Shown in pieces: positions 7,336 through 33,581 of a stretch of 40,004 bases of DNA. Numbering within the stretch: the stretch's first letter is position 1; each line of letters opens with the position of its first letter. The DNA is from a virus. The translations under genes and the position numbers were made by a program. Location of the stretch: positions 1 through 40,004 of the IMG/VR virus record IMGVR_UViG_3300025087_000178; one strand, given 5' to 3'. Below the pieces are notes generated by a model. The model did no database searches and was not told the origin of the DNA. It worked only from the letters and a program-made list of their open reading frames with translations.

Positions 7336-7336
7336 G

Positions 7337-8248
7337 ATGAACGCGATCAAAATATTCTCGAACAAAATCAAGCTGCGTTTGGCGCTCAAACAGGATGAGA
7401 CCCAGCGTCAGCCTGGCGTGTTGGGTGATGGCTTTGGCGCTGTGACGGTGCCCGGACTGAGTAATTTCAACTATGTCACCATCGGCGATAAGGTTCTGCC
7501 TGTGTTCAATAACCGCGTGCCTGCCCAGGCGGGCATCAAGATTTGGGTGGGATACGAGCCAGACCAAAGCGATAAGGTTTACAAAAATAAATTATTTCAG
7601 GTGCTTTCCACACGAAGCGAAACTCCTGCGGGTGTGGAAGTTGGCTATGTGGGTTATGCCCCCGCGAAACGTTATGAATGGAACGCCTCGGGCGGCGGGC
7701 AGGATCCGCTGAGTGTGCATCTGCGCGCATTCTCTCCGCTGAAGCTGGGCGTTTCGAGCGCTGGCGGAATGAACGTTGAGCTTTACAAAGGCAACGTCAA
7801 CGATGGGACTGATTTCATCCCGATTGCGCGCCAAAATATAAACTTGAGCGCGCACATTCCCACCACGGCGGGCAAGGCGGCGCTGGTGATGATCAGCATT
7901 GACAACACAGGCGCAATCATTCAGACCAAGGGCAGTGAGGTAGACATCACTGCGCTGGCTCCGAGTGACCGTCCTTCAGTTCCAGCCGATACATTGTTTG
8001 TCTGCGGCTGCGTGCGCGTCTATTATGGTCAAACTGCGATTCAAGAAGGACGCATCAATACTGATTTTGATGATCTACGTTTTCCAGGACTGTTTGGCGG
8101 TGGAGGCGGCGGTTCTGTAATCTTCCAACGTAACCTAACCGCAGATTTATCACTGGCGGATGGGGAAAGCCTAGTCGTGGCTGATTATATAAACTATGGA
8201 AATTATGCGATCACCTTTATTGGTGACGCGGAGGTAATGCTACTATGA
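7337..8248 (+). CDS. Tail tip / appendage protein
   Basis: This 303-aa protein starts at an ATG preceded by TTGGAGTGAG, just after the previous stop. It is beta-rich, with ATTAGKAALVMISIDNTGAII-like strands at about 195-220 and a Gly-run (GGGGGGS-type) hinge at about 258-264 before a short C-terminal beta region. This pattern occurs in upper tail-fibre or baseplate periphery proteins of siphoviruses. The exact role is inferred from position between the hub and the fibre genes. Confidence 0.5.
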   Translation: MNAIKIFSNKIKLRLALKQDETQRQPGVLGDGFGAVTVPGLSNFNYVTIGDKVLPVFNNRVPAQAGIKIWVGYEPDQSDKVYKNKLFQVLSTRSETPAGVEVGYVGYAPAKRYEWNASGGGQDPLSVHLRAFSPLKLGVSSAGGMNVELYKGNVNDGTDFIPIARQNINLSAHIPTTAGKAALVMISIDNTGAIIQTKGSEVDITALAPSDRPSVPADTLFVCGCVRVYYGQTAIQEGRINTDFDDLRFPGLFGGGGGGSVIFQRNLTADLSLADGESLVVADYINYGNYAITFIGDAEVMLL

Positions 8249-9153
8249 CAGCAGGGATAAGTAAATTAAGATTGTACGTGGAAGAATACGCGGCAGGCGA
8301 ATCGCCAGCTACTCCTGGAGTTGGTGAATGGGCGTTATTTTTTCGTCCCGATGGGGCATACACAAAGGACGACGCTGGTACTGTCGCAGGACCGCTCGGA
8401 ACAGGGGGTAGTGGGATATCAGATGGGGATAAGGGTGACCTTACCGTATCAGTGGGCGGAACTGTCTGGACAATTGACGCTGGTGTAATAACATTGGCAA
8501 AAATGGCAAATATGGCGACTGCGTCATTGCTTGGACGAAGTACCGCAGGTGATGGGGCGCCAGAAATATTATCAGCGAGTACTGTGCGTACCCTGCTTGA
8601 TTTGGTTGTTGGCACAAATATCCAGGCATACAATTCCGTACTTACCACCCTTGCTGGAGCGAGCGCAAACGGGCAGAGCCTAATTACCGCCGCCGATTAT
8701 GCAGCCATGAAAGCCCTTCTCGATTTGGAGATTGGTATTGATGTACAGGCGTATGATGCAGACCTTACTGCATGGGCAGGCAAGACTGCGCCAACAGGGA
8801 CTGTACTTGGAGAAACCGACATACAGACCCTGACCAATAAACGAATCACAAAACGAGTTGCAAGCGCGACCGATGACGCGACCGCTGTTATTGATTCGGA
8901 CAGTTACGATGAGTATTATTTGACCGCCGTTGCAAATGCGACTGAAATATCTGTGGCTGGCACACCAACAACAGGGCAGACAATATTTATTGGATTGAAA
9001 GATGCTGGGGTATCCAAAGCCCTGACATGGACAGGTATTACAGCATTAGGGGTAACGCTGCCAACCGCTACCACTGCGGGAAAACAACATATCATCGGAG
9101 TGAAATATATCGCGTCTGCATGGCGAGCAATTGCAGTAGGAGTGGAGGCTTAG
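8245..9153 (+). CDS. Tail fibre protein
   Basis: A 302-aa protein with an N-terminal GEWALFFRPDGAYTKDDAGTVAGP segment, then GDKGDLTVSVGGTVWTID, a glycine-rich fibre-shaft sequence seen in many phage tail fibres. Imperfect repeats follow (NIQAYNSVLTTLAG and DVQAYDADLTAWAG). The C-terminal 110 residues form a beta-rich domain. Four bases overlap the previous gene. It is likely the shaft of a receptor-binding fibre. Confidence 0.75.
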   Translation: MTAGISKLRLYVEEYAAGESPATPGVGEWALFFRPDGAYTKDDAGTVAGPLGTGGSGISDGDKGDLTVSVGGTVWTIDAGVITLAKMANMATASLLGRSTAGDGAPEILSASTVRTLLDLVVGTNIQAYNSVLTTLAGASANGQSLITAADYAAMKALLDLEIGIDVQAYDADLTAWAGKTAPTGTVLGETDIQTLTNKRITKRVASATDDATAVIDSDSYDEYYLTAVANATEISVAGTPTTGQTIFIGLKDAGVSKALTWTGITALGVTLPTATTAGKQHIIGVKYIASAWRAIAVGVEA

Positions 9154-9154
9154 A

Positions 9155-9862
9155 ATGGCAGTAGATGATGCCTATACAGTAGCGTTATTGCACATGGACG
9201 GAGCAGATGGCTCTACAACCTTCACGGATGAGGCAGGTAACGTATTTACAGCCGCAGGAAACGCGCAAATTGATACAGCTCAAAGCAAATTTGGCGGCGC
9301 GTCTGGTTTGTTTGACGGAGCGGGAGATTATATATCCGCACCTGATTCAAGTGATTGGACATTAGATGATAGTTCAGGCTCGAATAAATGGACAGTGGAT
9401 TTCTGGGTGCGCTTCAACGTAGACCCAGGAACGACAATAGCCACATTAGTTGGTCAGCTTGTGGACACAGCCAATTTTTGGATTATCCGACTAAACGCAA
9501 ACATATTACAGTTCATTGTCGTAAGCAGTGGCACTACGATTATCAATATTGCTCCTGCCTGGAATCCAGTAGCAGCGCAATGGTATCATGTAGCTATTGT
9601 CAAGGACGGGACTAATGGATACATGCATTTCATAGACGGAACTCAAATAGGACCTACGACAACGGACGTAAGCACAATACCAAACTTTACAGCGCCGCTT
9701 TCCATAGGTCAGGTTGCTAGCGCGAATTATTTCAATGGCTGGATGGACGAGCTAAGAATTAGTAAGGGCGTGGCTCGGTGGACGGCTAATTTTACGCCGC
9801 CCACAAGCGCGTATGCGCCAGCGGTTGGCGCAGATACAGATAAATTCTTTGCATTTTTTTAG
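9155..9862 (+). CDS. LamG / concanavalin-like receptor-binding protein
   Basis: A 235-aa protein that is almost wholly one LamG-like jelly-roll domain: LLHMDGADGSTTFTDEAG at the start, KFGGASGLFDGAGDYIS, WTVDFWVRF, WYHVAIVKDGT, and WMDELRISKGVARWTANFTPP at the end. Such domains bind carbohydrate and often form the tips of phage tail fibres. It starts 1 base after the fibre gene stop. It probably recognises surface glycans of the host. It ends at a TAG. Confidence 0.8.
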   Translation: MAVDDAYTVALLHMDGADGSTTFTDEAGNVFTAAGNAQIDTAQSKFGGASGLFDGAGDYISAPDSSDWTLDDSSGSNKWTVDFWVRFNVDPGTTIATLVGQLVDTANFWIIRLNANILQFIVVSSGTTIINIAPAWNPVAAQWYHVAIVKDGTNGYMHFIDGTQIGPTTTDVSTIPNFTAPLSIGQVASANYFNGWMDELRISKGVARWTANFTPPTSAYAPAVGADTDKFFAFF

Positions 9863-9869
9863 GTCGCAC

Positions 9870-10757
9870 ATGGGACACGCTGTCAAAGGGAAAAAAAATG
9901 CCAGACGTTTTGGCATTGCGGAGATACGAAAAACAGTAGAGGATGAAGGTTTTGCATTAGGCTATGGCACGACCTCCGTTTATCATCTGGAGGAGTTGTA
10001 CGGGAAGATTTTATCGTTGTCCGCAAAAGTAAAAGTTCTTGAAACTTGCAGAGAGGAATTGTCAGCCTTAGTGCAAGAGCAAGAAAAGGAGACAATAAAA
10101 ATGGCTAGACCAAAAAATGATAATAAACGTAAATCCGCGATTGCATTGGTAATCGCAATTGCGGCGGCGGGAACGTTTCTTGTTGCGCGTCCTGAAAGCA
10201 AGAGATATGTAATCGCCACCCCCCCGTATGATAGCCGCGAGGTGTTCACGGTTATTGACACGAACACGATTCCTGGCTGGATTGAAATAACGCCAGGGGT
10301 ATATCAGGAAAATCCTGACGGTGATAAATATGTTAGGCAGGATTTAGATGGCGGAATGTGGCAGGGGGATATATTCAGGACTGCGACTCCGTCTGCGACA
10401 TCATCTATCACGCCCCCGCCGACAGTCACATCTACGCCGACTATAACATTGACGCCGAGCCTGACGCCGCTCGTGCCTGTGATTTATACATTGACATTCA
10501 CGCCAACAGCCGCGCCGTCTGTGGTTAGCCAGATACCGTTTTTTGTGGAGGTGCTAGTAGATAAACTGTCCATCTATGGATACGCATCGTGCGCGGGTGC
10601 AGTGAAAGGCAATCTCGCCAAACATGGGACGATTGAAATTTTGGAGGTGACGAGCCATAACGGGAAAGATTATTGCGGCAAAATTGGGAATAAATTGTTT
10701 ATCCCGTTGGTGGTTGGTGGTGTGTCGTTTACGAGTTGGAGCTATGGAGAAGAATGA
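9870..10757 (+). CDS. Thr/Pro-rich membrane-anchored protein with two candidate starts
   Basis: The long form (295 aa from 9870) has a basic N-terminus and a coiled-coil stretch. It is followed by an in-frame ATG at 10101 with a much stronger AAAAGGAGA site, giving a 218-aa short form that begins just before a basic patch and a membrane helix (SAIALVIAIAAAGTFLVA). A Thr/Pro linker of TxTxTPS type follows, then a C-terminal domain of about 75 residues with two Cys. The linker is typical of exported Anaerolineae proteins (knowledge of the group). It sits between the receptor-binding genes and the lysogeny module, ending at a bidirectional terminator. Role unknown; lysis, envelope modification or adhesion are all possible. 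Confidence 0.6.
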   Translation: MGHAVKGKKNARRFGIAEIRKTVEDEGFALGYGTTSVYHLEELYGKILSLSAKVKVLETCREELSALVQEQEKETIKMARPKNDNKRKSAIALVIAIAAAGTFLVARPESKRYVIATPPYDSREVFTVIDTNTIPGWIEITPGVYQENPDGDKYVRQDLDGGMWQGDIFRTATPSATSSITPPPTVTSTPTITLTPSLTPLVPVIYTLTFTPTAAPSVVSQIPFFVEVLVDKLSIYGYASCAGAVKGNLAKHGTIEILEVTSHNGKDYCGKIGNKLFIPLVVGGVSFTSWSYGEE

Positions 10758-16412: not shown

Positions 16413-16588
16413 TGTTTTCGATTGGAAATCCAGAAACAGGCAAACGCACAGACATGCGATATGAGACACAGGAGCTTGCTGATATTGCGGCAATCGAAGC
16501 CAGCATAGATGATCACATTTGGGCGGTATGGGATGAGGATGATGGGGAATTGGTCGCATTGGCATTTCAAGATAGATTATTTGATTGA
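16412..16588 (+). CDS. Small acidic protein (58 aa)
   Basis: Reads MFSIGNPETGKRTDMRYETQ then an acidic helix and WAVWDEDDGELVALAFQDRL. The start overlaps the previous stop. The alternating WAVWDE.DGELVAL strands suggest a small alpha/beta fold. No family recognised. Confidence 0.55.
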   Translation: MFSIGNPETGKRTDMRYETQELADIAAIEASIDDHIWAVWDEDDGELVALAFQDRLFD

Positions 16589-16595
16589 GGAAATC

Positions 16596-17555
16596 ATGAA
16601 CACAATTACCAATTACCAATCACCAATTACCCTGCAACTTCACTGGCTCGATCAATTCCAGTCATATCTTGAAACTGACTACCGCAAAATCACACATCGC
16701 CAGTTGAGTGGCAGTTCTATTAAAACTGCAATCCAACGTGTGCGCGAATTTGCCTTGTGGTATGAAGCCGAATTCAAACAAAGCTTCAACCCTGCCGAAC
16801 TGGTCAACTACCATTTCATCGCATTCCGCAAACATTCTCTTAACGAGGCAAAGGTCAAAGCGCGGACGTGGAATTCACGTCTATGGGCGCTCACCATTCT
16901 GTGCCAATGGATAGATGTGCCCGAATTGATCGAAGGCGTAACGGGCAAAAAACATGACCAGCTTTCAGAGAAATACCGCTCCCTGACCAAAAAAGAACGC
17001 AATGATTTGATCGTGACCTGCCAGAAGGATGTTCGCGGCTCTGTCACCCAATTTGATTATTACTGCGCTGTACGCGACTATGCCATGATCGCCGTGATGC
17101 TTGAAGCAGGTCTGCGCGTGGCTGAATGCGCGGCTCTCGACGTGGATGATATTGTCATCGGCGAACGTTCGGGGCATGTGCTGGTGCGTGATGGCAAGGG
17201 AGAGAAGGAACGCAAAGTGCCGCTGACTGTGGAACTTGTCCGCCCTGCATTAAAAGCGTGGATCGAAGTGCGCGGCGCGGCTCAAACCTCCGCCCTGTGG
17301 CTGGGCAAAACAACCGAGCGACTCAGCGCCCGAAGCATGGAGCGCATCGTCAAAGGCATCTCTTCTCGAATTAGTTCGCCTGAAATTACCCCCCATTGCC
17401 TGCGCTACGAGTTTGAGAAGAACCTCCAGCGCAGCAAAGGCATGGACATTGTAGACATCAGCCGCTTGCTGGGTCACAACTCCATCGAAGTCACCAAACG
17501 CTATCTGCGCTCTTCGATGGATGATCTACTGTCCGCTATGGAAGGGGTGATGTGA
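16596..17555 (+). CDS. Tyrosine recombinase / integrase
   Basis: A 319-aa protein with all catalytic residues visible: R174 (AGLRVAECAAL), K201 or K204 (GKGEKERKVPL), H267 and R270 (PHCLRYEF), H294 (LLGHNS) and Y303 (KRYL). The N-terminal 120 residues fit a SAM-like core-binding domain. GAGG precedes the ATG at 16596; an in-frame start at 16509 lies inside the previous gene. It sits in the early region, away from the serine integrase, so it may act as an accessory recombinase, for example in dimer resolution, or as a second integrase. Its first codons are made of an AATTACC tandem repeat. Confidence 0.9.
   Translation: MNTITNYQSPITLQLHWLDQFQSYLETDYRKITHRQLSGSSIKTAIQRVREFALWYEAEFKQSFNPAELVNYHFIAFRKHSLNEAKVKARTWNSRLWALTILCQWIDVPELIEGVTGKKHDQLSEKYRSLTKKERNDLIVTCQKDVRGSVTQFDYYCAVRDYAMIAVMLEAGLRVAECAALDVDDIVIGERSGHVLVRDGKGEKERKVPLTVELVRPALKAWIEVRGAAQTSALWLGKTTERLSARSMERIVKGISSRISSPEITPHCLRYEFEKNLQRSKGMDIVDISRLLGHNSIEVTKRYLRSSMDDLLSAMEGVM
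16604..16631 (+). repeat. AATTACCA short tandem repeat within recombinase start
   Basis: Four units of the ATTACCA/TCACCA type encode ITNYQSPIT at the N-terminus of the tyrosine recombinase. Similar repeats are widespread in cyanobacterial and Chloroflexota genomes (from memory). In-frame invasion of the N-terminus by the repeat seems likely. Confidence 0.5.
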
Positions 17556-18735: not shown

Positions 18736-19101
18736 TTAATATCAACCGCCAATAATCACAGGTCAGTTCGCCATGTCCACCCGCCGCGCCAATCACTCTG
18801 TATCAGTAGTAGAAAGAATCCCAATGTTCACCATATTCATGTGCGTATGGTGGCATGGGCAGGCACACCACCAGAAACGCGCGGCTGTGTCAGTAATAGG
18901 CATTATGCGACACAAAGTGCGTGATAGCGGGCATACCTGGCGGTTAGATTGGGCTGTAAGGCAAACATTATCTGTCGCATAAGGTAGAGAGGCAAGGGGG
19001 GTGGGGGTGTTCGGCGAATTGTTTTGGTTTTGCGGGTAGGTGTGTGGCAGCACGGCTCGGATAGTTATAAAAATTCTGGAAAAACGCTGGAGAAAATGTT
19101 C
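18736..19101. other. Intergenic region with 10-bp inverted repeat before the primase gene
   Basis: About 365 bases with no convincing gene. TTATGCGACA at 18903-18912 pairs with TGTCGCATAA at 18973-18982, enclosing 60 nt. AACCGCCAATAA at 18744-18755 resembles two copies downstream of the parR-like gene. A G-rich stretch lies near 18994-19010. It may hold a promoter, a structured RNA or a regulatory site. A 69-codon frame at 18773-18982 is not credible as a gene. Confidence 0.45.
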
Positions 19102-22100
19102 ATGGATAACTTTGTGGCAGAGTTGAAAAAAAGGATCAGAATTGAAGATGTCATCAGCGAGACTGTTGAGTTGGATAAAGGCAACAGGCGTGGATATACG
19201 CGCGGGGCGAAACGCGGCGCAGGCGAACATGGCTTGGTTGTTGATCTGGACGGTCAGCGTTTTTCGTGGAATGGGAATGCTGAATATGGTGGCGGCAGAT
19301 ACAACGATGTGATCTATTGGGTGATGGTTCGTGACCGTGTTGACTTCAAACATGCGTTGGAAACGCTTGCACGCAAGGCGGGGATGGAATTACCGAAGTG
19401 GAATGAAGAGCAACAAGTGAAATTCGCCGCTGTGCGCAAGCAGGAAGATGTATTGGAAACCGCCCAGCGTATTTTTGCTGAATGGCTTTGGAAAGATGAG
19501 AAGGCATTGGCATATGTGCGCGGTCGTAGGTGGACAGATGAGACGATTAAGGCGGCAGGGCTAGGCTTCACTGGATATGGGACGACCACTGAATATGAAC
19601 TTATGAAGAACGCTATTGCTGCTACTGAGGATTTGCACTCGCCCGCGGCGGTTGCGATTCTGGGACTGCGGGGCGGCGTGAAGAGTTGGTGCGAGAAGCG
19701 CGGCATACAGCCAAAAATCAACTGGGAGGAAAAAGATTTCATACCGTCCATGTTGGGATGGAAAGATAAATTCGGTCTTATTTACCCATGTATTTATTTT
19801 GGGAGAACCACTTATTTATATCGCCGCCATCTGATGCTGAATGAAGATAAATCTGCATTGATCGGTTCGGATGAGCCGAAAAGCTATAACCTACCAGAGG
19901 CATTGATTGGCAATCGCCAATTATTTTTCAATCATGTTTATTCGCCGCGTGCTGAGCGAGTTGTGTTTGTTGAGGGACCTGGGGACGCGGTGACGCTCGG
20001 ACAGTGGGGGGTGGATGCTGTTGCTATCGCTGGAACAGCCTGGGGCGATCACGAAGCAGCTCTTCGTCAATTGAGGGAAGCGAAGTTTGGGGATGCTCCC
20101 GCACACGAGGCTTTGTATATCGCGTTGGATTCGGATAAGGCAGGGAGTGAATCGGTGCGCGGCAAAAACGGTGAGTGGCCGTTGGTCGAAATCCTTGGAC
20201 CCATGTGCAGAGTGATCGAGTGGCCAGAGAAGGATGCAAATGACTGGCTGCAGATGATGGTCAAAAGCGAGATCGTACTGGACGATCAAAAGATAATGGC
20301 GGCGCAACAAATCGGAGCGGCGAAGCCTTTGGCGCTGCAGGTGGCAAAGTGGGCAGGCTTGCAAACCGATGACCATTCAAAGAGCAAGGCATTGACACGC
20401 GCGTTTCAGGTCATTGCGCAAATGGGTGATGAGAATTTGGTCATGCAATACGTTGGTGATTTCCTCGGAGCGTTTCGACCTTTGGGCGAGACCGTGAAGG
20501 GCGTGCGCGAATTCACACGGCTGCTTAAGAAGGCAATGGGTAAGAGTGAAGAGGGCGATGAGCGGAAAGAAGAGGTCATTTACACCTACGGCGGGCGGAT
20601 CGGTGATTGGCTGTTGGAATATTGCTATGATGATGAAAAGGGTAAGGCGCGATTCGCCTATCGAGATCCAAATGGAAAGGTTGATGAGGCTGACGATCTA
20701 TTGATCGATGGTAAACGTTATAAGCCGAAATTCCCAGACGACAAAATGATAACGAAGGGCGCGATCCAATTCCCTTCGGGGCTGGCGCGGCGTGAGGATG
20801 GAAGCATCGACCGCAAGAGCACGCGCGAATTGACCACCATCATTGCGATCACGGTCCGCAAGAATTACTTGTTTCGAGATATGAAGTGGCCGCAGCTCGC
20901 ATCCTATTGGATCATGGGAACGTGGATGTATGACAATTTCAGCGAGTTGGTGTACCTGCGCATGGTGGGCGATGCTGGAGCGGGAAAGAGCGCGTTGTTG
21001 AATCTGATTGGCGGCATGTGTTACCGCTCGATCAAGATGAGCGGTGCGGACAGCGAAAGCACGTTCTTCCGGGTGGTGGATGATTTTCGGGGGACCATCC
21101 TTTTTGAAGAGGCTGACCTGCCCGATAACAGCGGGGCGGATAACCCAATCGTCAAATTCGTGAATCTGGGTGCGATGCGCGGGAATTACATCTATCGCAA
21201 TGAAGAGTTTATTGATGGTGATGGAAATAAAGGCTGGCGTCCGACACCGTTTGAGACCTACTGTCCAAAGATGTTTGCTATGCGCGGGGACTTCATGGAT
21301 AACGCTGTTGCCAGCCGTGCGATCTCGTTGAAGTTGACTTCAGCAGAGACTTCTGAACTGCGTGATGCGGGCATTCCATTGCGTTTGTCGCGGCTGGTGA
21401 TGCGGAGCCTGAAACGAATTCAGAACCTGTGTTTGACATGGCGCTTGCATGAATATTCTTTAGAGGAACGTGAATTAGGCTGGGACCTTGTGGACGTGGA
21501 GATCCCCGCACGCTTCAACCAGGTGACGATGCCAATGAAAAGTTTGGCGATGAATGTGGACGGTTCGCGCGATGAAGAATTTTTGAACCAGATCACGATG
21601 CTGCTGCGTAGCCATTACCAGGACATCGTGGGCGAGAATTCAACGACGTGGGAAGCGCGTGTGGCGGAAGCTATTTGGAAGATGTACACCTACTCAGATC
21701 TGCGGTCTCGCATGGTAATCAAGGATGATGGCGAGATCTATATCAAGGTTGGGGATGTATCTGCATTGGCAAACAATATCGCTGATGAAATGAACGAGGA
21801 AGGCGCGGACTTGCGGATCAAGAAAGATGAAGGCGCGGAAGATGGGTCGCCCGCTGCGCGGAAAGGCAAGAAGAATTTTGACCTTTCAGCCCAGCGTGTG
21901 GGCAGGATCATCCGCGATAAATTTCAACTTTATACGCCTCCCCGAACTGGCAAAGGTATTTACTTCCTTTGGGACGATGGAAAGATGATGGCTATTGGAA
22001 AGAAATATGGGGCACTGCCTGCAATGGAGAAAATCGAGAAAGCGCGGCAGGAAATGGCGGCTTTACGGGCCAAGAAGGCAGTCACGCTGCCATTGATCGT

Positions 22101-22161
22101 GGATGAAACAGATCCTTCGACTGCGCTCCTCTCCGCTCAGGACGAAGAGGAAGCGGTGTAG
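19102..22161 (+). CDS. Primase-helicase fusion
   Basis: A 1019-aa protein from the ATG at 19102, 9 bases after GGAG; an ATG at 19096 is also possible. Residues 1-95 resemble a DnaG-type N-terminal domain but have no Cys zinc ligands. The Toprim core lies at about 285-345 (VFVEGPGDAVTL and IALDSDKAGSES). A helicase ATPase follows at about 620: GDAGAGKS (Walker A), TILFEEAD (Walker B), then NLGAMRGNYIYRN. Both activities needed to prime and unwind phage DNA are therefore in one chain. It is directly followed by the iteron cluster, consistent with origin-linked replication. Confidence 0.88.
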   Translation: MDNFVAELKKRIRIEDVISETVELDKGNRRGYTRGAKRGAGEHGLVVDLDGQRFSWNGNAEYGGGRYNDVIYWVMVRDRVDFKHALETLARKAGMELPKWNEEQQVKFAAVRKQEDVLETAQRIFAEWLWKDEKALAYVRGRRWTDETIKAAGLGFTGYGTTTEYELMKNAIAATEDLHSPAAVAILGLRGGVKSWCEKRGIQPKINWEEKDFIPSMLGWKDKFGLIYPCIYFGRTTYLYRRHLMLNEDKSALIGSDEPKSYNLPEALIGNRQLFFNHVYSPRAERVVFVEGPGDAVTLGQWGVDAVAIAGTAWGDHEAALRQLREAKFGDAPAHEALYIALDSDKAGSESVRGKNGEWPLVEILGPMCRVIEWPEKDANDWLQMMVKSEIVLDDQKIMAAQQIGAAKPLALQVAKWAGLQTDDHSKSKALTRAFQVIAQMGDENLVMQYVGDFLGAFRPLGETVKGVREFTRLLKKAMGKSEEGDERKEEVIYTYGGRIGDWLLEYCYDDEKGKARFAYRDPNGKVDEADDLLIDGKRYKPKFPDDKMITKGAIQFPSGLARREDGSIDRKSTRELTTIIAITVRKNYLFRDMKWPQLASYWIMGTWMYDNFSELVYLRMVGDAGAGKSALLNLIGGMCYRSIKMSGADSESTFFRVVDDFRGTILFEEADLPDNSGADNPIVKFVNLGAMRGNYIYRNEEFIDGDGNKGWRPTPFETYCPKMFAMRGDFMDNAVASRAISLKLTSAETSELRDAGIPLRLSRLVMRSLKRIQNLCLTWRLHEYSLEERELGWDLVDVEIPARFNQVTMPMKSLAMNVDGSRDEEFLNQITMLLRSHYQDIVGENSTTWEARVAEAIWKMYTYSDLRSRMVIKDDGEIYIKVGDVSALANNIADEMNEEGADLRIKKDEGAEDGSPAARKGKKNFDLSAQRVGRIIRDKFQLYTPPRTGKGIYFLWDDGKMMAIGKKYGALPAMEKIEKARQEMAALRAKKAVTLPLIVDETDPSTALLSAQDEEEAV

Positions 22162-25848: not shown

Positions 25849-26167
25849 AAAGAAAATGAAACAATGGCGTTGTAGGAATAACCATATCCTCGGATTTATC
25901 CGCTGGAATGGGAATGGCTTGCCGCAGCTGATGGTACTGCGGGAGGCGTTGGATATGGATGTGGAGCATCCGCATGATGTGGATTCGTTGGGTCCGCTGG
26001 ATGGGCGGATGCCGATCAGGTGCTCAATTTGCGAAGACGTGCAGGTGTGGCAGATCAATGCGTTGAGTCTGGTTTCTCTGTTTATTCAGTTGGATGATGC
26101 AGAGATGTTCAAGTTTTCGCAGACGTTGTTAGAGTTGAATAGAAAGTCAGAGGCGAGTGATGGCTAA
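25841..26167 (+). CDS. Small zinc-finger-like protein
   Basis: A 108-aa protein starting at the ATG 6 bases after GGAGG. WRCRNNHILGFIRWNGNGLP near the start and RCSICEDVQVW near residue 65 form a C..H..CxxC set compatible with one zinc site. This layout (CRN.H.LG..RxNG followed by VRCxxC) is frequent in small phage proteins. Function unknown, probably nucleic acid binding. Confidence 0.6.
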   Translation: MDEKKMKQWRCRNNHILGFIRWNGNGLPQLMVLREALDMDVEHPHDVDSLGPLDGRMPIRCSICEDVQVWQINALSLVSLFIQLDDAEMFKFSQTLLELNRKSEASDG

Positions 26168-26918
26168 GAATTCTACAATCAATTGGACAGACCATACTGC
26201 GAATTTTTGGTGGGGTTGTCAAAAGGTAAGCGACGGATGCAAAAATTGTTATGCCGAAACATTTTCAAAGCGTTTTGGAAAACACATCTGGGGTCCCGTT
26301 GAGACGACGAGCCGCGAACGTAAGAAGGCGATTTGGAATGATATTTTGAGGTGGGATAGGGAAGCGAAGACTGACGGAATTCGGCGGCGCGTGTTTGTTT
26401 CGAGCATGAGTGATTTTCTTGAGGATCATCCGCAGGTTTTTGAGTGGCGTGAAGAGGCAATGAATATTATTGAGCGATTGGAGTATCTGGATGTATTGTT
26501 ATTGACAAAACGCCCAGAAAATGCTTATTTGTTGGGTGATTGGAATGAGTTTGGATTACCCGCGCATGTATGGTTTGGAACGACAATCGAAAACAACAAG
26601 CAAATGCAAAGAATGATTGATGCGTTGACTGTGCCAGCGAAGATCCATTTTTTTAGTGTGGAGCCGATGCTTGAATTTGTGAATATGAATTTTCCGTCCC
26701 AGCCAAACTCTAAACGCGATACATGGGTGATTTGCGGTGGTGAGAGCGGAGCGGGTTGCAGACCGTTTGATTATATGTGGGCGCGTGATCTGCGCGATCA
26801 ATGCAAGCTGGCGAATGTACCGTTTTGGATGAAGCAGGCGGGTGGGCATCCGTATGCGCGGCATCAGATGGAGGATTTTCCGAACGATCTAAAAATTAGG
26901 GAGTTGCCTAATGAGTAA
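26160..26918 (+). CDS. DUF5131 / phage Gp37-Gp68-like Cys-cluster protein
   Basis: This 252-aa protein starts at the ATG at 26160. It has INWTDHTANFWWGC, then SDGCKNCYAE (C-x6-C-x2-C), the hallmark of the DUF5131 phage Gp37/Gp68 family, followed by VFVSSMSDFLED, LLLTKRPEN, HVWFGTTIENN, and VICGGESGAGCRPF. The family has a radical-SAM-like barrel and Cys cluster; its substrate is not established to my knowledge. It lies directly upstream of the integron integrase, overlapping its start. Confidence 0.8.
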   Translation: MAKNSTINWTDHTANFWWGCQKVSDGCKNCYAETFSKRFGKHIWGPVETTSRERKKAIWNDILRWDREAKTDGIRRRVFVSSMSDFLEDHPQVFEWREEAMNIIERLEYLDVLLLTKRPENAYLLGDWNEFGLPAHVWFGTTIENNKQMQRMIDALTVPAKIHFFSVEPMLEFVNMNFPSQPNSKRDTWVICGGESGAGCRPFDYMWARDLRDQCKLANVPFWMKQAGGHPYARHQMEDFPNDLKIRELPNE

Positions 26919-27897
26919 GTTGATGGATGAAGTTGTGGATAAGATGCGGATGTTGCATTTGTCACGCAAAACTATAAAGGCATATTCTGCAAAGATCCAT
27001 GAATATGTTCTTTTCACTGGCGCAAAACAACGAAGCGATTTGAACGATACAAGCAAAATCGAGAAGTATTTGACTTATCTGGCGACTGCGAGACGTGTGA
27101 GCGCGTCATCACAAAATCAGGCATTTTATGCGGTGTTGTTTTTATATCGTGAGGTGTTGAAAATCGAGGTGGGGAATGTCCAATCATTGCGCGCTCAAGA
27201 AGGTAAAAGACTTCCAACAGTTTTGAGCAAAGCAGATACGATGCGCGTTTTGAACTGTGTACATGGCGATCCATATCATTTGATCTCACAATTATTGTAT
27301 GGTTCGGGAATGAGGTTGAGCGAAGTGCAACAATTGCGCATCAAGGATATTGGTTTTTCCGCTTATGTGATTATGGTCCGCGCTGGAAAGGGCGATAAAG
27401 ATCGGACGGTGCCACTTCCAAGAAGTTTGGAGAAACCTCTGCGAGATCAGATTGGGATTGCACGGAATTTACATAATATCGATGTCCAGCGTGGTATGCC
27501 TGGCGTTTATGTGCCGAATGCGTTAGATGTGAAGTACCCAAATGTTGGAACTGAATGGGGATGGTTTTAGGTTTTTCCTGCGGAGAATTATTCGACTGAT
27601 CCTGAGACGAAAATTTATCGCAGGCACCATATTTATGAAACTGGAATTCAGCGCGCGGTAAAGGCGGCACGGCTTGAGGCTGGTGTCGCAGGTCATGTGA
27701 CGCCGCACACATTTCGCCATTGTTTTGCCACCCATCTTTTACAGGATGGATACAACATTCGAGTTGTGCAGGAGTTGCTTGGACATAAAGACGTGAAAAC
27801 TACCATGATCTATACCCATATCATGATGCCTGGTGGTCAGGCTGGTGTTGTCAGCCCGCTGGATAAGATGCCAGTGGAGGACATTATCCGTTTGTAG
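26911..27897 (+). pseudogene. intI: IntI-family integron integrase with one in-frame TAG
   Basis: The frame would encode 328 aa but has a TAG at codon 220 (27568-27570). Upstream are R135 (GSGMRLSEVQQLRIKDI) and K160/K163 (GKGDKDR). Downstream, in the same frame, are [21 protein letters not shown]266 and R269 (PHTFRH), H292 (LLGHKDV) and Y301 (TTMIYTH), ending [10 protein letters not shown]. The stretch YPNVGTEWGWF-stop-VFPA aligns with WPWFWVF of IntI1, so the TAG replaces Trp, one G-to-A change. The IntI-specific insert (STDP..RRHH) sets it apart from ordinary XerC/D. Without suppression the product lacks the second half of the active site. It is followed by attI and cassettes. Annotated as a probable recent pseudogene. 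Confidence 0.88.
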
Positions 27898-27920
27898 ATG
27901 GATAATGATAGTTCGGCGGC
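27898..27920 (+). other. attI / first cassette junction
   Basis: GTTCGGCGGC at 27911-27920 directly follows the integrase gene. Its reverse complement is found exactly as the R'' side of the first attC (28333-28342), as expected when cassette 1 was inserted at G27911. The attI half left of the cut is short and follows the integrase stop directly. The matching right half of the original attI should now lie after attC3 (from 29802). Confidence 0.8.
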
Positions 27921-28458
27921 TTCGTGGCTGTCCGAAGTAAAGGAAAAACAAAATGGAACTTTGCGGAATATCTGGTCAGCCATACGATGAATGTGATGGC
28001 TTGCATGAAGATGAGTGCGTTTGGCAATGTGGTCAATGTGGCGGGAATGTTTATAACTGCATTTGTCCCGAAGAAACCGCGCCATTCATAGGCGTTGATG
28101 TTGCGTCTGGTAAAGATAAAACCGTAACAATGGTTATTGAGAAATGTTCGTTTGATGGCTGTGGCGAATTGGTCTGTGAAGCGGATAAAGAATCCCCCGA
28201 CCGTATGCACTTTTGCCAGAGTCATCACGACCAACTGGCGCAATATGTGAAAGATAATGCCATCCCTAAAATCATAGGTTTTTGGGTCAAGGCAAACGGT
28301 GGCGCAAAGAAACTTGCATCTACATTCTAAACGCCGCCGAACACAGCGTGCAGCCGACGTGTGGGATTCGGCGGCATTTACAGGGCTGATACTAGCCCCA
28401 GCAGTTTACTAATCTCAATCATTTGCCTAGCCCGCCCACACGCGGCTAACGCAAACCG
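27912..28458 (+). mobile_element. Integron gene cassette 1 (547 bp)
   Basis: Begins TTCGGCGGC and ends at G28458 of attC1. Contains one gene in the same direction. The start and the R'' box of its attC are reverse complements over 10 bp. A second copy of TTCGGCGGC lies inside the attC1 loop (28367-28375). Confidence 0.85.
27953..28330 (+). CDS. Cys-rich protein of cassette 1
   Basis: A 125-aa protein with an AAAGGA site upstream. It has many Cys, including CGQCGGNVYNCIC and CSFDGCGELVCE, then HFCQSHH, consistent with one or two zinc sites. Around residue 45 PFIGVDVASGKDKTVTMVIE resembles a beta-hairpin found in some phage RuvC-like starts, but the protein is too short for a nuclease. Ends 5 bases before the attC1 R'' box. 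Function unknown. Confidence 0.65.
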   Translation: MELCGISGQPYDECDGLHEDECVWQCGQCGGNVYNCICPEETAPFIGVDVASGKDKTVTMVIEKCSFDGCGELVCEADKESPDRMHFCQSHHDQLAQYVKDNAIPKIIGFWVKANGGAKKLASTF

Positions 28459-28464
28459 TTGGAA
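28336..28464 (+). other. attC1 recombination site
   Basis: R'' GCCGAAC (28336-28342), 9-nt spacer, L'' AGCCGAC (28352-28358), long central part, L' GCGGCTA (28442-28448), 9-nt spacer, R' GTTGGAA (28458-28464). GCCG-A-CGTGTGGG pairs with CCCACACGCGGC, leaving A28357 extrahelical, the attC polarity signal. The L boxes match the AGCCGAC/GCGGCT form of well-known attC sites such as aadA1. A small hairpin (28383-28398) lies in the central part. The 129-bp length is within the attC range. Confidence 0.9.
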
Positions 28465-28857
28465 GGCACTTGCAAAATGATTACTCTTAAACACAATGAA
28501 GTTCCCGATATTCCTGGTTGGATGTTTGAATGTCCGAAATGTGGCGATCTGCTCACTTGCGAAATTGACGAATGGGAGCAAATGGAAGATGGCTCTTGGC
28601 GCGTCAGCGAGTGCGGCTTGAAATTGTCGTGTGCATCCGAGCCAGAAATCGGAAGTAAAAATTGGCATGAATGGCACAATTGGCATTTTGATATGCCGTA
28701 TGTGTATTGGCTTCCACTGCAAATAAAGGTGTGGGCATGGTTCAATGAGTCTTTTCGCTTTGAGCCTTCCAACATTGCGTGCAGTGGACAAGAGACGGGC
28801 GCGGCAAAATCTGACGGTGAATCTACATCCGCCGTCTCTTGCCACTAACGCTCGCCG
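28459..28857 (+). mobile_element. Integron gene cassette 2 (399 bp)
   Basis: Begins TTGGAAGGC and ends at G28857. GTTGGAAGGC at its start is the exact reverse complement of GCCTTCCAAC (28764-28773) in its own attC. One gene fills almost the whole cassette. Confidence 0.9.
28477..28848 (+). CDS. Zinc-ribbon-like protein of cassette 2
   Basis: A 123-aa protein from the ATG at 28477; GGAAGG of the cassette end serves as ribosome site. An in-frame TTG at 28459 belongs to the R' box and is not used as start. Features: MFECPKCGDLLTCE (CxxC), then a Trp-rich middle (WHEWHNWHFDMPYVYWLP, WAWF). The last 25 codons and the stop are encoded by attC2 itself, so the C-terminus is shaped by the recombination site. 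Function unknown. Confidence 0.65.
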   Translation: MITLKHNEVPDIPGWMFECPKCGDLLTCEIDEWEQMEDGSWRVSECGLKLSCASEPEIGSKNWHEWHNWHFDMPYVYWLPLQIKVWAWFNESFRFEPSNIACSGQETGAAKSDGESTSAVSCH

Positions 28858-28863
28858 TTATGC
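28767..28863 (+). other. attC2 recombination site
   Basis: R'' TTCCAAC (28767-28773), 9-nt spacer, L'' AGTGGAC (28783-28789), L' GCCACTA (28841-28847), 9-nt spacer, R' GTTATGC (28857-28863). AGTGG-A-CAAGAGACGG pairs with CCGTCTCTTGCCACT over 15 bp, with A28788 extrahelical. Box spacing is identical to attC1 and attC3. The site overlaps the end of the cassette 2 gene. Confidence 0.92.
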
Positions 28864-28875
28864 CCCTTTTTCTAC

Positions 28876-28904
28876 TTGACATAGTACGCTGATTAGCGTA
28901 CACT
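28876..28904 (+). promoter_or_regulatory. Cassette 3 promoter with palindromic operator
   Basis: TTGACA (28876-28881), 17-nt spacer, TACACT (28899-28904). The spacer contains GTACGCTGATTAGCGTAC (28884-28901), a perfect 7-bp inverted repeat around GATT. The small HTH protein of the same cassette is the natural candidate to bind it (inference). An AAAGGAG site follows before the first gene. Confidence 0.8.
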
Positions 28905-28924
28905 TGAATAAAGGAGATTATAAA

Positions 28925-29536
28925 ATGCCAATCGAAATCAAAAAACACGTTCGTGAGTTTGTCCATAAGTACCTTGATGTCACCGCAGAGCAGGAACACG
29001 CCATCGTTGATTACGCTCTTGATACATGGCAAGCACTGCCACCGCAGGTAAAGTATTTGCATTTTGTCGGTGACTTTGCCACAGGCAAAACCCGTGCAGG
29101 GAAAATCATGGAGTACATTTGCCATAATCCCATTGTGGCGCGTGGCACTGCTTCCCCGTTTTCTGTGGCGATGATGATTGACCAGAGCCAGCCATGCACT
29201 TTGATTTTGGATGAAGCAGACATTTTGCCTGAGCAAGAGCCTGATGAAGATGGTTATGTCGCCCCAAATCTTTTTGAAACCATTTTGAATGTTGGGGCGA
29301 TGAAAGGCAACTTCATCACCAACAGCGCAGGAAATGCAATGAATGTTTTCGGCTATAAAGTCATTATGAGCCGTAAGCAATTTTCAGACCCTGCCAAAGC
29401 GTCAAAATGTATCGTTATTCGCTTGAAGGAAAAGAAGCGGCTTGAAATACCGCCTGTTTTGAATGGCGACTTCACCAGCGACGGCGAGAAAATCAGGTCA
29501 TTGCTTCAGCAGCATTCTGAATATGTCACCTGCTGA
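28925..29536 (+). CDS. P-loop ATPase of cassette 3
   Basis: A 203-aa protein starting 9 bases after AAAGGAG. Walker A is GDFATGKT at 49-56, Walker B CTLILDEAD at 91-99, followed by ILNVGAMKGNFITNSAG and a basic stretch with R at about 135-160. The order Walker A, Walker B, (N)xGAM+GN(Y/F)I is also seen in this phage's own primase-helicase, so it looks like a stripped helicase-type ATPase without a primase part. Paired with an HTH regulator under one operator, it could be a defence or interference unit. Function is not known. Confidence 0.75.
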   Translation: MPIEIKKHVREFVHKYLDVTAEQEHAIVDYALDTWQALPPQVKYLHFVGDFATGKTRAGKIMEYICHNPIVARGTASPFSVAMMIDQSQPCTLILDEADILPEQEPDEDGYVAPNLFETILNVGAMKGNFITNSAGNAMNVFGYKVIMSRKQFSDPAKASKCIVIRLKEKKRLEIPPVLNGDFTSDGEKIRSLLQQHSEYVTC

Positions 29537-29768
29537 GTTTCTCGAATACTTGTCCAAAGAAATGGCAGCGGCAGGCGGTCAAACGCTTTACGCCGTCCAC
29601 GTTGGTATCAGCAAGCAATATTTGAATGACATCTTGAAAGGCAGAAAAGAGCCAGGTATGAAACTTCTCAAAGCAATCGGCTTCAAAAAGATTGTCACTT
29701 ATGAACCCACACGGGGCATAACACTGCTTGCACCTGACGCCGCTAAGGCTGCGGCTGAATCATCGTAA
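29523..29768 (+). CDS. Small HTH regulator of cassette 3
   Basis: An 81-aa protein that overlaps the ATPase gene by 14 bases. The helix-turn-helix is GQTLYAVHVGISKQYLNDIL followed by KGRKEPGMKLLKAIG and KIVTYE, a common small XRE-like form. It probably binds the palindrome in the cassette promoter. Its last 15-20 codons (GITLLAPDAAKAAAESS) are encoded within attC3, ending in the loop of that site. Confidence 0.75.
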   Translation: MSPAEFLEYLSKEMAAAGGQTLYAVHVGISKQYLNDILKGRKEPGMKLLKAIGFKKIVTYEPTRGITLLAPDAAKAAAESS

Positions 29769-29807
29769 TTTTATAAATCGCGGCGCAGGTAAAGCGCGCC
29801 GTTCGGC
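29716..29807 (+). other. attC3 recombination site
   Basis: R'' GCATAAC (29716-29722), 9-nt spacer, L'' ACCTGAC (29732-29738), L' GCAGGTA (29785-29791), 9-nt spacer, R' GTTCGGC (29801-29807). ACCTG-A-CGCCGC pairs with GCGGCGCAGGT, with A29737 extrahelical. No further GCGCCGAAC was seen downstream, so the array appears to end here and bases from 29802 are the original attI flank. Confidence 0.9.
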
Positions 29808-29841
29808 GCATTTTGATTTATTAGAATCTGTGTTCTAACCC

Positions 29842-29870
29842 TTGTTAAATTTTTGAAATTGTTTTAAAAT
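29842..29870 (+). promoter_or_regulatory. Sigma70-like promoter for the late operon
   Basis: TTGTTA (29842-29847), 17-nt spacer, TAAAAT (29865-29870) in an AT-rich stretch just after the integron and before the structural operon. It is the best promoter candidate in the gap 29808-30021. Confidence 0.6.
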
Positions 29871-29896
29871 ACACTTACAAATAAATACTTTGCACA

Positions 29897-29966
29897 GCCC
29901 GCCTTTTATGGCAGGCATTCTCGGAGACAAGCGCCCGATGTTGACTTAGGTCAGCATCGGGCGCTT
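29897..29966 (+). terminator. Leader hairpins (possible attenuator) before the late operon
   Basis: Small hairpin 29897-29916 (GCCCGCC/GGCAGGC, one mismatch). A long one follows, 29929-29945 pairing with 29950-29966 over 17 bp with one G-T wobble and a TTAG loop, followed by TCGCG rather than a T-run. A third short stem CCCC/GGGG lies near 29973-29988. Stacked hairpins between promoter and first gene suggest attenuation, antitermination or a stable 5' leader. Confidence 0.5.
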
Positions 29967-30021
29967 TCGCGTTCCCCGTAAAGGGGACCTTGTAATCCAC
30001 TTAGTTCAAAAGGAGATTTGC

Positions 30022-30453
30022 ATGAAACGTTTTTTGAATATTCTGTTGGTTGGTGTGTTTATGGTAGTGATGCTTTCAGCTTGTGCGATTGCGCCTGCTG
30101 ATGGTGCTGCCGATCCCTCAAATGTGACGGAAGTGCAGATGTATGTGATCGGCGTCATTGCTTCCGCATTGCTGTATGGATTGAAATTGCTTGCGGCGCG
30201 TTTTCCGAAGATCGTCATCAAGCGCGAATGGCTGAGTGTCTTGCTGTATGGCGTGGCGTTGGGACTGTCTTTATTTTGGGGCGGCGCGGTTATTCCTGCC
30301 TTCGCTCAATTCAGTGACCCCGTGACATTTGTGGCTGCAGTTTTTGGCTGGATCACTGCGCTATTGATTGCCCTGGCGCCGTCCGTTTCGTTTGCGACGT
30401 TGATCTACAACACTTTGCTCAAGCGCGTTTTTGATAACTGGACTGGAAAATAA
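30022..30453 (+). CDS. Membrane protein, possible holin
   Basis: A 143-aa protein with an AAAGGAG site. The N-terminal signal-like helix ends in LSAC, a possible lipobox. Two or three more membrane helices lie at about 40-60, 70-95 and 105-125. Small multi-helix membrane proteins next to a one-helix coiled-coil protein are typical of holin pairs. It sits just before the packaging genes. Holin function is a guess from topology. Confidence 0.45.
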   Translation: MKRFLNILLVGVFMVVMLSACAIAPADGAADPSNVTEVQMYVIGVIASALLYGLKLLAARFPKIVIKREWLSVLLYGVALGLSLFWGGAVIPAFAQFSDPVTFVAAVFGWITALLIALAPSVSFATLIYNTLLKRVFDNWTGK

Positions 30454-30458
30454 TTTTT

Positions 30459-30827
30459 ATGGAAACGTTCCTCCAGCAAAACGGCTGGATCGGTTTTTTG
30501 ATCTATATCCTGTGGAAGGAGTTTTTCCCTTTTCTTCGGGACCGTGTATATCCCGAGAACTTGAGGCGGATCAATGCTGATCGAGAGCGGCTGAAAAAAC
30601 TGGAGGAACGGACCCTTGAGAATGATGAACGCCAGACGCGCGTGATTGAAAGCATGAATAACGCAGTGCATGAAATGACAGTTGCAATTTCAACCAATAA
30701 TGAGCGTCTTTCTGTATTGTCTATCAACCACAACGAACATGCGCGATTTGTGCAGGATAGCATCACGATCATGCGCGAGAGATCAGCAGAGCAAGCTGGC
30801 ATGAAGCGCCGCAAAGAAGATATGTAA
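30459..30827 (+). CDS. Membrane-anchored coiled-coil protein
   Basis: A 122-aa protein with one N-terminal membrane helix (WIGFLIYILWKEFFPFL), then a long heptad-rich coiled coil (ERLKKLEERTLENDERQTRV onward). Topology resembles spanin-like or haemolysin XhlA-like partners of holins. It lies 5 bases after the previous gene without a strong ribosome site. Role inferred only from context. Confidence 0.5.
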   Translation: METFLQQNGWIGFLIYILWKEFFPFLRDRVYPENLRRINADRERLKKLEERTLENDERQTRVIESMNNAVHEMTVAISTNNERLSVLSINHNEHARFVQDSITIMRERSAEQAGMKRRKEDM

Positions 30828-30838
30828 AAGGAAATAAT

Positions 30839-31195
30839 ATGCCTAATCTAACTGATGGAATGTACGAAGCTGTGAGTAATGTAAATATTCGCCGCGAGCC
30901 GAGGATTGTTGAATACAAGTTAGGGAAAAACTTTGTTACAAATCGCATTGGTGGTATTGGCGCTGGAACGCAACGCATGATCTATAGCCTGCTTACCAAT
31001 AAAGCTAACGAAACCTGGGGACGTATTTCTGAGGCGGATTCAACTGGCATTGCAGGATGGGTTTGCATTCAGAACATTAATCGCGTTTTCATGAAACCTG
31101 TGGATGAGCAGCCTCAAGTTGTAGTTTTACCGTCGGGGTTGGAGTCGCGCGTTACTTCGCTCGAAGCACGTGTTGCCACGCTCGAAGGAAAATAA
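30839..31195 (+). CDS. SH3b-like protein with C-terminal coiled coil
   Basis: A 118-aa protein. Residues 8-90 resemble a bacterial SH3 domain (VNIRREPRI, TWGRISEADSTGIAGWVCI), usually involved in cell-wall or glycan binding. Then a short coiled coil (LESRVTSLEARVATLEGK), which suggests oligomers. It could be part of the lysis or adhesion set. No hydrolase domain is fused to it. Its stop overlaps the next start. Confidence 0.55.
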   Translation: MPNLTDGMYEAVSNVNIRREPRIVEYKLGKNFVTNRIGGIGAGTQRMIYSLLTNKANETWGRISEADSTGIAGWVCIQNINRVFMKPVDEQPQVVVLPSGLESRVTSLEARVATLEGK

Positions 31196-31980
31196 TGAAC
31201 AACGGACGTTTGGAAAAACCAGTTTATCAATTGCCGCTTGGTTTTGACCTGGTTGGCATCGAGGAAGCCGCACAGCAGGATGAAAGGCTTTCGAGTGAAG
31301 CCGCGCTTACGGCTCTTTCGGCTTTGCGGATGAAAGAGCCGATCATTCAAAAAATTCGCGCCAAAGATATTGAAACCAATAAGGTCATTGAAAAGGATGA
31401 GGTTATTGGCGAGCGCGAAGTTGAGCCGCGCTGGATGGATTTATTCAAACGTTTGAATCAAGGCGGTTGGAAGTGGCGCGTGGCTGTTTATATCGCCTGG
31501 GCTTCGCAACCGAAGAAATACCGCTGGCCAGAGACTCAGGAAGAGCTTGCAGTCAAATGCCTTGGACTGACTTCAGACCGCGCGATTGCCACATGGCGCA
31601 AGAAAAACGACACGATTGACGAAACGATATCCATGCTTCAAGGCTCGATCATCTTCGACGCATTGCCCGATGCGTTGAATGCGATGGTGGAGGTTGCAAC
31701 TGAGGCTGATTACAAGGGTCATGCGGACCGCAAGTTGATGTTTGAGATGGGCGGCATTTATACGCCGTCCTCGAAGATCACGGCGGAAATTGCGAAGAAA
31801 CTCAGCAAGAGCAATATGGATGAAAACGATTTGAGCGACGCTGAGTTGCGGGATATTGCAGGTGCGGCACAGCATGAGTTGGAAAGGCGAGCCACCCCCC
31901 TGCCTCTGAGTACAGAGGCATCCCCCCAAATCGAAGAACACGATTTGGAGGGAGAAGAGCCGAGCGAGGAACTTGAATAA
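31195..31980 (+). CDS. terS: Terminase small subunit
   Basis: A 261-aa protein directly before the large terminase, overlapping by one base. The pattern WRVAVYIAWASQPKKYRWPETQEELAVKCLG followed by a TWRKKN helix (given here in parts: residues 100-145) fits the HTH of phage terminase small subunits of the phBC6A51 type. The C-terminus is acidic and disordered. It should recognise packaging sites on phage DNA. Confidence 0.75.
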   Translation: MNNGRLEKPVYQLPLGFDLVGIEEAAQQDERLSSEAALTALSALRMKEPIIQKIRAKDIETNKVIEKDEVIGEREVEPRWMDLFKRLNQGGWKWRVAVYIAWASQPKKYRWPETQEELAVKCLGLTSDRAIATWRKKNDTIDETISMLQGSIIFDALPDALNAMVEVATEADYKGHADRKLMFEMGGIYTPSSKITAEIAKKLSKSNMDENDLSDAELRDIAGAAQHELERRATPLPLSTEASPQIEEHDLEGEEPSEELE

Positions 31981-33581
31981 TGGCAAATGCGGCGACACGA
32001 TTGAAGGTATCACCAAATAGCGCACGGGCAGAAATGGCTCGGCGTGAATTGGCGCGTCGTCATTTGATTGATTACAGTGTTTATGTTGCGCCTTGGTATC
32101 AACCTGCAAAACATCATATTTATCTAGCTGAAAAACTTGAGCAGGTGAAGCGATTTATTGAAACAAAAGGCGCTGAGGGTATCGGGCGGTTGTTGATCTG
32201 TGAGCCTGCGCAATATGGGAAGACCGAACAGGCAAGCCGCTTATTTCCTTCGTGGTTGCTTGGTGATTTACCCGATACGCGCATCATTCTCACATCCTAT
32301 GGCGCTGACCTGGCTACGGAAAACAGCCGTTATACGCGGAATTATGTGGGTAGTGATGCTTATGCAAATATCTTTGGCGCGCGCTCTGCGGTTGACGAAC
32401 CCGTCGAACTCAGCCCCGAGAGCAGATCTGTGGTTTCCTGGAACTTGAAGGGCCATCGTGGATCTGTTTTTGCGGCTGGTGTTGGCGGTGGTATCACGGG
32501 GCGCCCTGCGAACCTGGTCGTGATCGATGACCCGTTCAAAAGCCGCGAAGATGCGGAGAGTGAATCGTATCGCAAGAAGGTAATGAGTTGGTATCGCTCG
32601 GTCATTTATCCGCGTGTTGCGAATACGCCAGGCGCGGCGATCATCATCATGCATACGCGTTGGGATCAGGAAGATTTGGCGGGTCAACTATTGACCCAGA
32701 TGATCGGCGATTCTGAATCAGATCAGTGGGATGTTGTGTTCCTGCCCGCTTTAGCTTTGGATGAGGATAAATATCCGAAGACAGAAGCAGAATACCGCGA
32801 GAATTTATTACGCGGAATTTACATTCCCATGGCTGCGGATGGCGATCCTTTGGGGCGTGCGCCAGGTGAACCGTTGTGGCCAGAACGATCTGACGCGAAG
32901 AAACTTGCGAACACACGCGCAAACATGATGGATCAGGATTTTGAGTCCATCTTCCAGCAGATGCCGCGTATGGCGGAAGGCGAGTTCTTCGATGATAAGG
33001 ATTTTGGAATTATCGAGAAGGCGCCCGAAGGCTTGCAGTGGTATCGCTATTGCGACCTGGCGTTGGGAATGTCGCAAACCAGCGATAAGAATTCAAGCAT
33101 CGCTGTGGCTTTCGATGACAAAACGGGCGACCTGATTTTACGTGATCGGATCAAGGTACGCGAGTTAGACGAGTTCATGGCACAGGTCAAAACCGCCATG
33201 CTTTCGGATGATGAACTCAATACCGAATGGGGCATTGAAGAGAATGCTTTTCAGTTGCTGGTAGTAAAGGATTTTTTGAAAGACCGCACATTGGTGCGAG
33301 TGCGTATCCGCGGCGTGAAGGCTGTTGGAGATAAGGTGGAACGGGCACGCCCCTGGCAGCGTCGCGCAAAGCAGGGACATGTGAAGCTGGTACGCGGGAT
33401 ATGGAATTTGGATTTTATCCGCGAGGTAACTTCATTTTCGCCAACATGCCGCCATGATGATGATGCGGATTCGGTCAGCGGCGGCGTGCAGATGATCGAG
33501 GATGACGGCGGGGATATGAAGACTGCGAGCAGTGAAGCGATTGTTGTGAGTGCGGAAGATTTATTTTCAATGCAAGTATGA
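31980..33581 (+). CDS. terL: Terminase large subunit
   Basis: A 533-aa packaging ATPase-nuclease. The Walker A-like motif is CEPAQYGKT at 74-82 (deviant, as in many phage terminases), Walker B LVVIDDP at 179-185, then MHTRWDQEDLAGQL. The nuclease domain has CDLALG with an acidic start near 355, IEENAF near 420 and CRHDDDADS near 495. It follows the small subunit and precedes the capsid genes. All expected regions are present. Confidence 0.93.
   Translation: MANAATRLKVSPNSARAEMARRELARRHLIDYSVYVAPWYQPAKHHIYLAEKLEQVKRFIETKGAEGIGRLLICEPAQYGKTEQASRLFPSWLLGDLPDTRIILTSYGADLATENSRYTRNYVGSDAYANIFGARSAVDEPVELSPESRSVVSWNLKGHRGSVFAAGVGGGITGRPANLVVIDDPFKSREDAESESYRKKVMSWYRSVIYPRVANTPGAAIIIMHTRWDQEDLAGQLLTQMIGDSESDQWDVVFLPALALDEDKYPKTEAEYRENLLRGIYIPMAADGDPLGRAPGEPLWPERSDAKKLANTRANMMDQDFESIFQQMPRMAEGEFFDDKDFGIIEKAPEGLQWYRYCDLALGMSQTSDKNSSIAVAFDDKTGDLILRDRIKVRELDEFMAQVKTAMLSDDELNTEWGIEENAFQLLVVKDFLKDRTLVRVRIRGVKAVGDKVERARPWQRRAKQGHVKLVRGIWNLDFIREVTSFSPTCRHDDDADSVSGGVQMIEDDGGDMKTASSEAIVVSAEDLFSMQV

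Follow-up and report, generated by a model that had tools for sequence, protein, structure and literature searches.

Operons of the acr-aca type, with the HTH families Aca1-Aca10, place a variable gene ahead of a small helix-turn-helix (HTH) gene, and an inverted repeat was found in the core promoter for each Aca family analysed (PMC9410906). The two genes overlap in the case of acrF1 and aca1 of Pseudomonas phage JBD30, as do the two genes of the cassette described here. In archaeal viruses, conserved regulatory sequences situated before unrelated genes mark anti-defence genes, and this property has been used for their discovery (PMC11065993). Integrons and attC clusters, methyltransferase cassettes included, have already been described from phages by Qi et al. 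(2023, PMC9892861), whose main text mentions neither the present phage group nor Rctr41k, helix-turn-helix or ATPase. Phage integrons as a whole are barely described and their cassette genes are mostly uncharacterised.

We analysed a virus record of 40,004 bases, the whole of which is referred to below as the window, and which carries genes for terminase, prohead protease and primase. In this record a gene for an integron integrase is followed by an array of cassettes, the third of which combines a P-loop ATPase gene with an overlapping HTH gene behind a promoter of their own. The relevant features are the following:

19024..22161, plus strand: phage primase-helicase, whose ATPase module (residues 641-779) is a distant homologue of the cassette ATPase
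26911..27897, plus strand: integron integrase gene (TIGR02249, 391.6 bits; cut-off 265)
27568-27570, plus strand: in-frame TAG of the integron integrase gene
27912..28458, plus strand: gene cassette 1, with a 125-aa gene (27953-28330) and attC1
28459..28857, plus strand: gene cassette 2, with a 129-aa open frame (28459-28848) and attC2
28858..29801, plus strand: gene cassette 3, crossover to crossover (G^TT boundaries, R'/R'' match)
28876..28904, plus strand: sigma-70-type promoter TTGACA-N17-TACACT, aligned with five relatives
28884..28901, no strand assigned: operator-like palindrome GTACGCTGATTAGCGTAC, lying between the -35 and -10 elements and conserved in five relatives
28910..28916, plus strand: ribosome-binding site AAAGGAG, kept in relatives
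28925..29536, plus strand: cargo gene for a stand-alone P-loop ATPase of 203 aa (ATG 28925, TGA 29534-29536)
29523..29768, plus strand: HTH (XRE-type) gene of 81 aa, a presumed autorepressor (ATG 29523; stop ends 29768)
29713..29807, no strand assigned: attC3 recombination site (R'' GGGGCATAAC at 29713, R' GTTCGGC from 29801)

The integron array and its integrase

Both 28858 and 29801 are G^TT crossover points, and the coordinates that the original prediction had assigned to the third cassette thus proved exact. The cassettes begin, after the G, with TTCGGCGGC (cassette 1), TTGGAAG (cassette 2) and TTATGCCCC (cassette 3), and each of these starts is exactly the reverse complement of the R'' box in the attC site of the same cassette; in cassette 3 the match extends over 10 nt between R' GTTATGCCCC (28857-28866) and R'' GGGGCATAAC (29713-29722). 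A search applying this same rule recovers a chain of three head-to-tail cassettes in the window, against a longest chain of one in 300 dinucleotide shuffles. The arms of attC2 and attC3 pair into a long stem of the usual kind, with an extrahelical base, attC3 possessing an L''/L' stem besides its complementary R'' and R' boxes, while the stem of attC1 is visible in the arm alignment only, the minimum-energy fold of the whole site being a different one. The array lies head-to-tail behind the integrase gene, which scores above the TIGR02249 cut-off despite its TAG. By all features tested, the stretch from 28858 to 29801 constitutes a complete integron gene cassette. As the R'' box of this cassette lies inside the HTH gene, the 3' end of that gene is made of attC3.

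The codon interrupted by TAG in the integrase gene corresponds to a tryptophan in the integrase of Rctr41k (WGWF*VFP in the window versus FGWFWVFP). Recoding of TAG was considered and set aside, given this tryptophan and the use of TAG as the stop of 5 of the 34 genes counted in the window, the integrase gene included; since genes in the window also end normally in TAG, this phage probably has a broken or truncated integrase. Another tyrosine recombinase gene, of a more ordinary kind, is found at 16509-17555, scoring well under the integron-integrase cut-off, and the phage may accordingly own an integrase besides IntI. Immediately upstream of the integron integrase gene, and overlapping it, is a gene of the DUF5131 family (199 bits; 26157-26918). 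The products of the first two cassettes (27953-28330 and 28459-28848) are Cys-rich, match no family above cut-off and are possibly zinc-binding. Just 3' of the array there is a strong inverted repeat (29929-29966) with 17-nt arms that are 94% complementary and a 4-nt loop, a possible terminator or boundary element.

Promoter, operator-like palindrome and HTH gene

When viral contigs and phage records were searched at the protein and DNA levels, the HTH gene was recovered in five other records, namely G002 (L003), G001 (L007), the nearly identical G003 and G004 (L005 and L006) and Virus Rctr41k (KX853513). The sample therefore comprises six records with the window, four or five of them independent and all reached via the HTH gene or the operator; scanning viral contigs for the integrase added no relative to these. 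Four of the records include the start of the cassette, and in them homology sets in precisely at GTTATGCCCC, that is, at the crossover G^TTATGCCCC, and spans TTGACA, the palindrome, the -10 element and the ribosome-binding site, whereas the sequence of L005 starts just upstream of the operator. The HTH proteins of the relatives are 81-92% identical to that of the window, and attC arrays are present in the relative records too. Rctr41k (L009, KX853513) holds a complete integron at 4680-10095, with a stop-free integrase annotated only as xerD-like. Its six chained head-to-tail cassettes occupy 5680-10095, the join at 8539-8807 having been picked up by a stem scan while the length rule of the chain search missed it.

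The stretch 28876-28904 is the top sigma-70-like match within 26000-33000 (10/12), yet this match alone is not evidence for a promoter, since the whole scan gave 10 sites as compared to 9.7 in shuffles. About 0.5% of the 29-mers in the window contain an inverted repeat as good as that at 28884-28901. It is the conservation of both elements in five other phage records that raises promoter and palindrome above chance, and that bears out the promoter of its own with which the cassette had originally been credited. The spacer palindrome, GTACGCT-GATT-AGCGTAC (28884-28901), had been described as perfect: its 7-bp arms are indeed so and are conserved, but one pair at the centre is mismatched, making the description slightly generous for the window copy; in G002 and Rctr41k the palindrome is fully perfect (GTACGCTAATTAGCGTAC). 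The operator has a single match in the window and, within the 26 kb of Rctr41k that were read, a single occurrence, in the promoter of that phage's own cassette. As it occurs once per phage, in its own promoter, the predicted target of the HTH protein is its own operon, the one obvious target. The autoregulatory layout of the original prediction, in the form of an operator-like palindrome in the unit's own promoter together with an HTH gene, is supported.

In Pfam, the HTH_3 model gives 21.8 bits for the window protein, below its cut-off of 23, and 24.2 bits for the Rctr41k copy, which passes. PADLOC models yield only weak generic HTH matches, and a dN/dS of 0.24 against the G002 copy indicates purifying selection. 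Similarity to Aca1 was not detectable, nor was any found to solved Aca structures, the comparison covering Aca1 and those families for which a structure has been solved. The sole plasmid match to the HTH protein (42%), on a Rhodovastum plasmid, was discarded as a different unit, with a DnaB-like helicase gene downstream and no such ATPase adjoining.

The ATPase and other cargo genes

The gene lodged between promoter and HTH gene is of three unrelated types: the ATPase in the window, in G002 (89% identical protein) and in Rctr41k (56%), a 92-aa gene in G003 and G004, and a 153-aa gene in G001. When the cassettes are aligned with one another, their first 60 bases are 77-93% identical and their HTH genes 86-91% identical in DNA (pairs measured), whereas the DNA identity of the middle gene between the three kinds of cargo is at background level. 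Such comparisons establish the conservation of the promoter-operator-HTH scaffold around unrelated cargos. The HTH and ATPase genes differ in age, also in a pair of phages that both possess the ATPase: dS between the window and Rctr41k is 0.39 for the HTH gene and saturated for the ATPase gene. Furthermore, the window and G002 share ATPases that are 89% identical and HTH proteins that are 92% identical, although identity between their large terminases is only 32%; the cassette, originally described as a mobile one carried on a phage, therefore moves between distant phages. None of the cargos of the scaffold in the six records is a known anti-defence gene. One further cassette of Rctr41k, a neighbour of the scaffold cassette, codes for a C5 cytosine methyltransferase, which is plausibly an anti-restriction gene.

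The ATPase gene had been singled out as an uncharacterised P-loop ATPase overlapped by an HTH gene, and both points hold: the protein carries Walker A (GDFATGKT) and Walker B (TLILDEAD) motifs, its gene overlaps the HTH gene by 14 nt, and searches of Pfam, PHROG, NCBIfam and PADLOC gave the protein no family match. Its dN/dS against the G002 copy is 0.11, again indicative of purifying selection. Outside cassettes, relatives were detected only in phage primase-helicases, namely their ATPase modules, both in the window and in related phages; the module in the window (residues 641-779) is about 27% identical to the cassette protein, which retains both Walker motifs along with a conserved SR motif. 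In view of these remote relatives and of the absent family matches, sequence comparison identifies the protein as a stand-alone one related to a phage replication ATPase, and not a known toxin. Scans of bacterial and archaeal genome contigs recovered no relative of either the ATPase or the HTH protein, plasmid searches gave no ATPase match, and sequence searches against solved structures returned nothing usable. Structure prediction for the ATPase reached a mean pLDDT of 38, both with the G002 homologue and with the primase modules added, a low confidence that reflects lack of alignment depth. The Rctr41k ATPase ends in a C-terminal tail, RVVIVEGQAQAMALNEQGIPAVSVG (L009 6370-6443), which resembles a Toprim motif of the window primase (46% over 24 residues), hinting at an origin from a primase-like gene.

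Possible functions and comparison with described systems

With slightly more confidence than doubt, we propose that cassette 3 is an Aca-like autorepressed, self-contained mobile unit with exchangeable and probably counter-defence cargo, the latter being favoured because the layout is closest to that of acr-aca operons. The precedent from archaeal viruses and the methyltransferase cassette of Rctr41k speak for the same view. Operator binding, the timing of expression and the role of the ATPase are what we infer in the following scheme. Upon entry into a cell without the repressor the promoter would fire at once; as the HTH protein builds up it would bind the palindrome between -35 and -10 and shut the unit off, giving an early burst of cargo followed by silencing, as in an acr-aca operon. 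By the same analogy the ATPase would most likely act early in infection against a host defence. The entire unit would be carried from phage to phage by the integron machinery, while its cargo would be swapped through recombination between the promoter and the HTH gene. A more far-reaching version, to which we lend somewhat less than even credence, is that the HTH protein founds a new integron-borne family of Aca-like repressors and that the ATPase and the 92-aa and 153-aa cargos are novel counter-defence proteins. If true, the phage integron would be an exchangeable magazine of anti-defence genes, with one self-regulated slot in which the cargo is swapped.

The original prediction had proposed a new anti-phage or phage-competition system, and the balance only leans from these towards counter-defence; the distant relationship of the ATPase to phage primase-helicases keeps competition between phages in contention. 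Here the ATPase would mimic the primase-helicase module and poison or modulate the replication of a competitor, for instance through mixed oligomers, while the HTH protein would otherwise keep it at a low level. Such a role accords with the retention of Walker A, Walker B and the SR motif and with primase-helicase modules being the sole relatives outside cassettes; however, the ATPase is only about 27% identical to these modules, and two further unrelated cargos, neither linked to replication, occupy the same slot, leaving this an unlikely explanation. The kinship with a replication protein and the purifying selection on the ATPase could also be read as those of an ordinary replication accessory protein that is in the cassette by chance, which we consider very improbable, as unrelated genes take the place of the ATPase in this slot in related phages and G001 has the primase-helicase module only, with no ATPase cassette gene. 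The original prediction had named as its counter-case homologues that are well-known replication or housekeeping genes lacking the HTH partner; such replication homologues exist, but only as remote ones at about 27% identity, and each of the three known close copies of the ATPase is accompanied by the HTH gene.

Integron cassettes with a promoter of their own are often toxin-antitoxin pairs, and the original prediction had likened the layout to such a unit. The first gene would then be a toxin and the HTH protein both antitoxin and autorepressor, stabilizing the array or aborting the infections of other phages; two overlapping genes, an own promoter and an operator are compatible with this. 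Nevertheless, the HTH protein is 81-92% identical to that of the window in cassettes whose first genes are of three unrelated types, so that the co-variation of partners seen in type II toxin-antitoxin systems is absent, and no toxin family is matched in Pfam, NCBIfam or PADLOC. Being near-constant while its partners are unrelated, the HTH protein is better seen as a shared autorepressor than as an antitoxin matched to each of them. For want of this co-variation the toxin-antitoxin view was dropped as the leading idea, and we regard it as quite improbable. The ATPase likewise has no match among the PADLOC models of known anti-phage defence systems.

The constant promoter-repressor shell around interchangeable genes has a consequence of its own: it shows how regulated operons can be exchanged in their entirety by phages over large evolutionary distances. 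The combination of HTH gene, operator and attC boundary further offers a handle for finding additional cargo genes by association. If the cargo does serve counter-defence, this handle would supply candidate anti-defence genes from phages that infect uncultured bacteria, for which similarity finds none.

Set against described systems, cassette 3 shares with acr-aca operons an arrangement in which a variable gene precedes the HTH gene of the same operon, a single promoter with an inverted repeat in its core (28884-28901, conserved in five relatives), a near-constant HTH protein with many unrelated partners, and carriage by phages. It departs from them in that its HTH protein is not detectably related to Aca1 or to the solved Aca structures, its cargo is a P-loop ATPase or another uncharacterised gene for which an anti-CRISPR role is putative, and the unit is carried as an integron cassette. 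The Acr proteins known so far are mostly small non-enzymes, and an ATPase would be an unusual cargo of this kind. With the toxin-antitoxin cassettes of integrons it has in common two genes and an own promoter, and it differs in lacking both a toxin family match and co-variation of the HTH protein with its partner. Finally, like the phage integrons described previously (PMC9892861), the group considered here combines an integron integrase, attC sites and cassettes, including methyltransferase cassettes, in a phage genome; what sets it apart is a regulated two-gene cassette in which a conserved shell encloses an exchangeable cargo.
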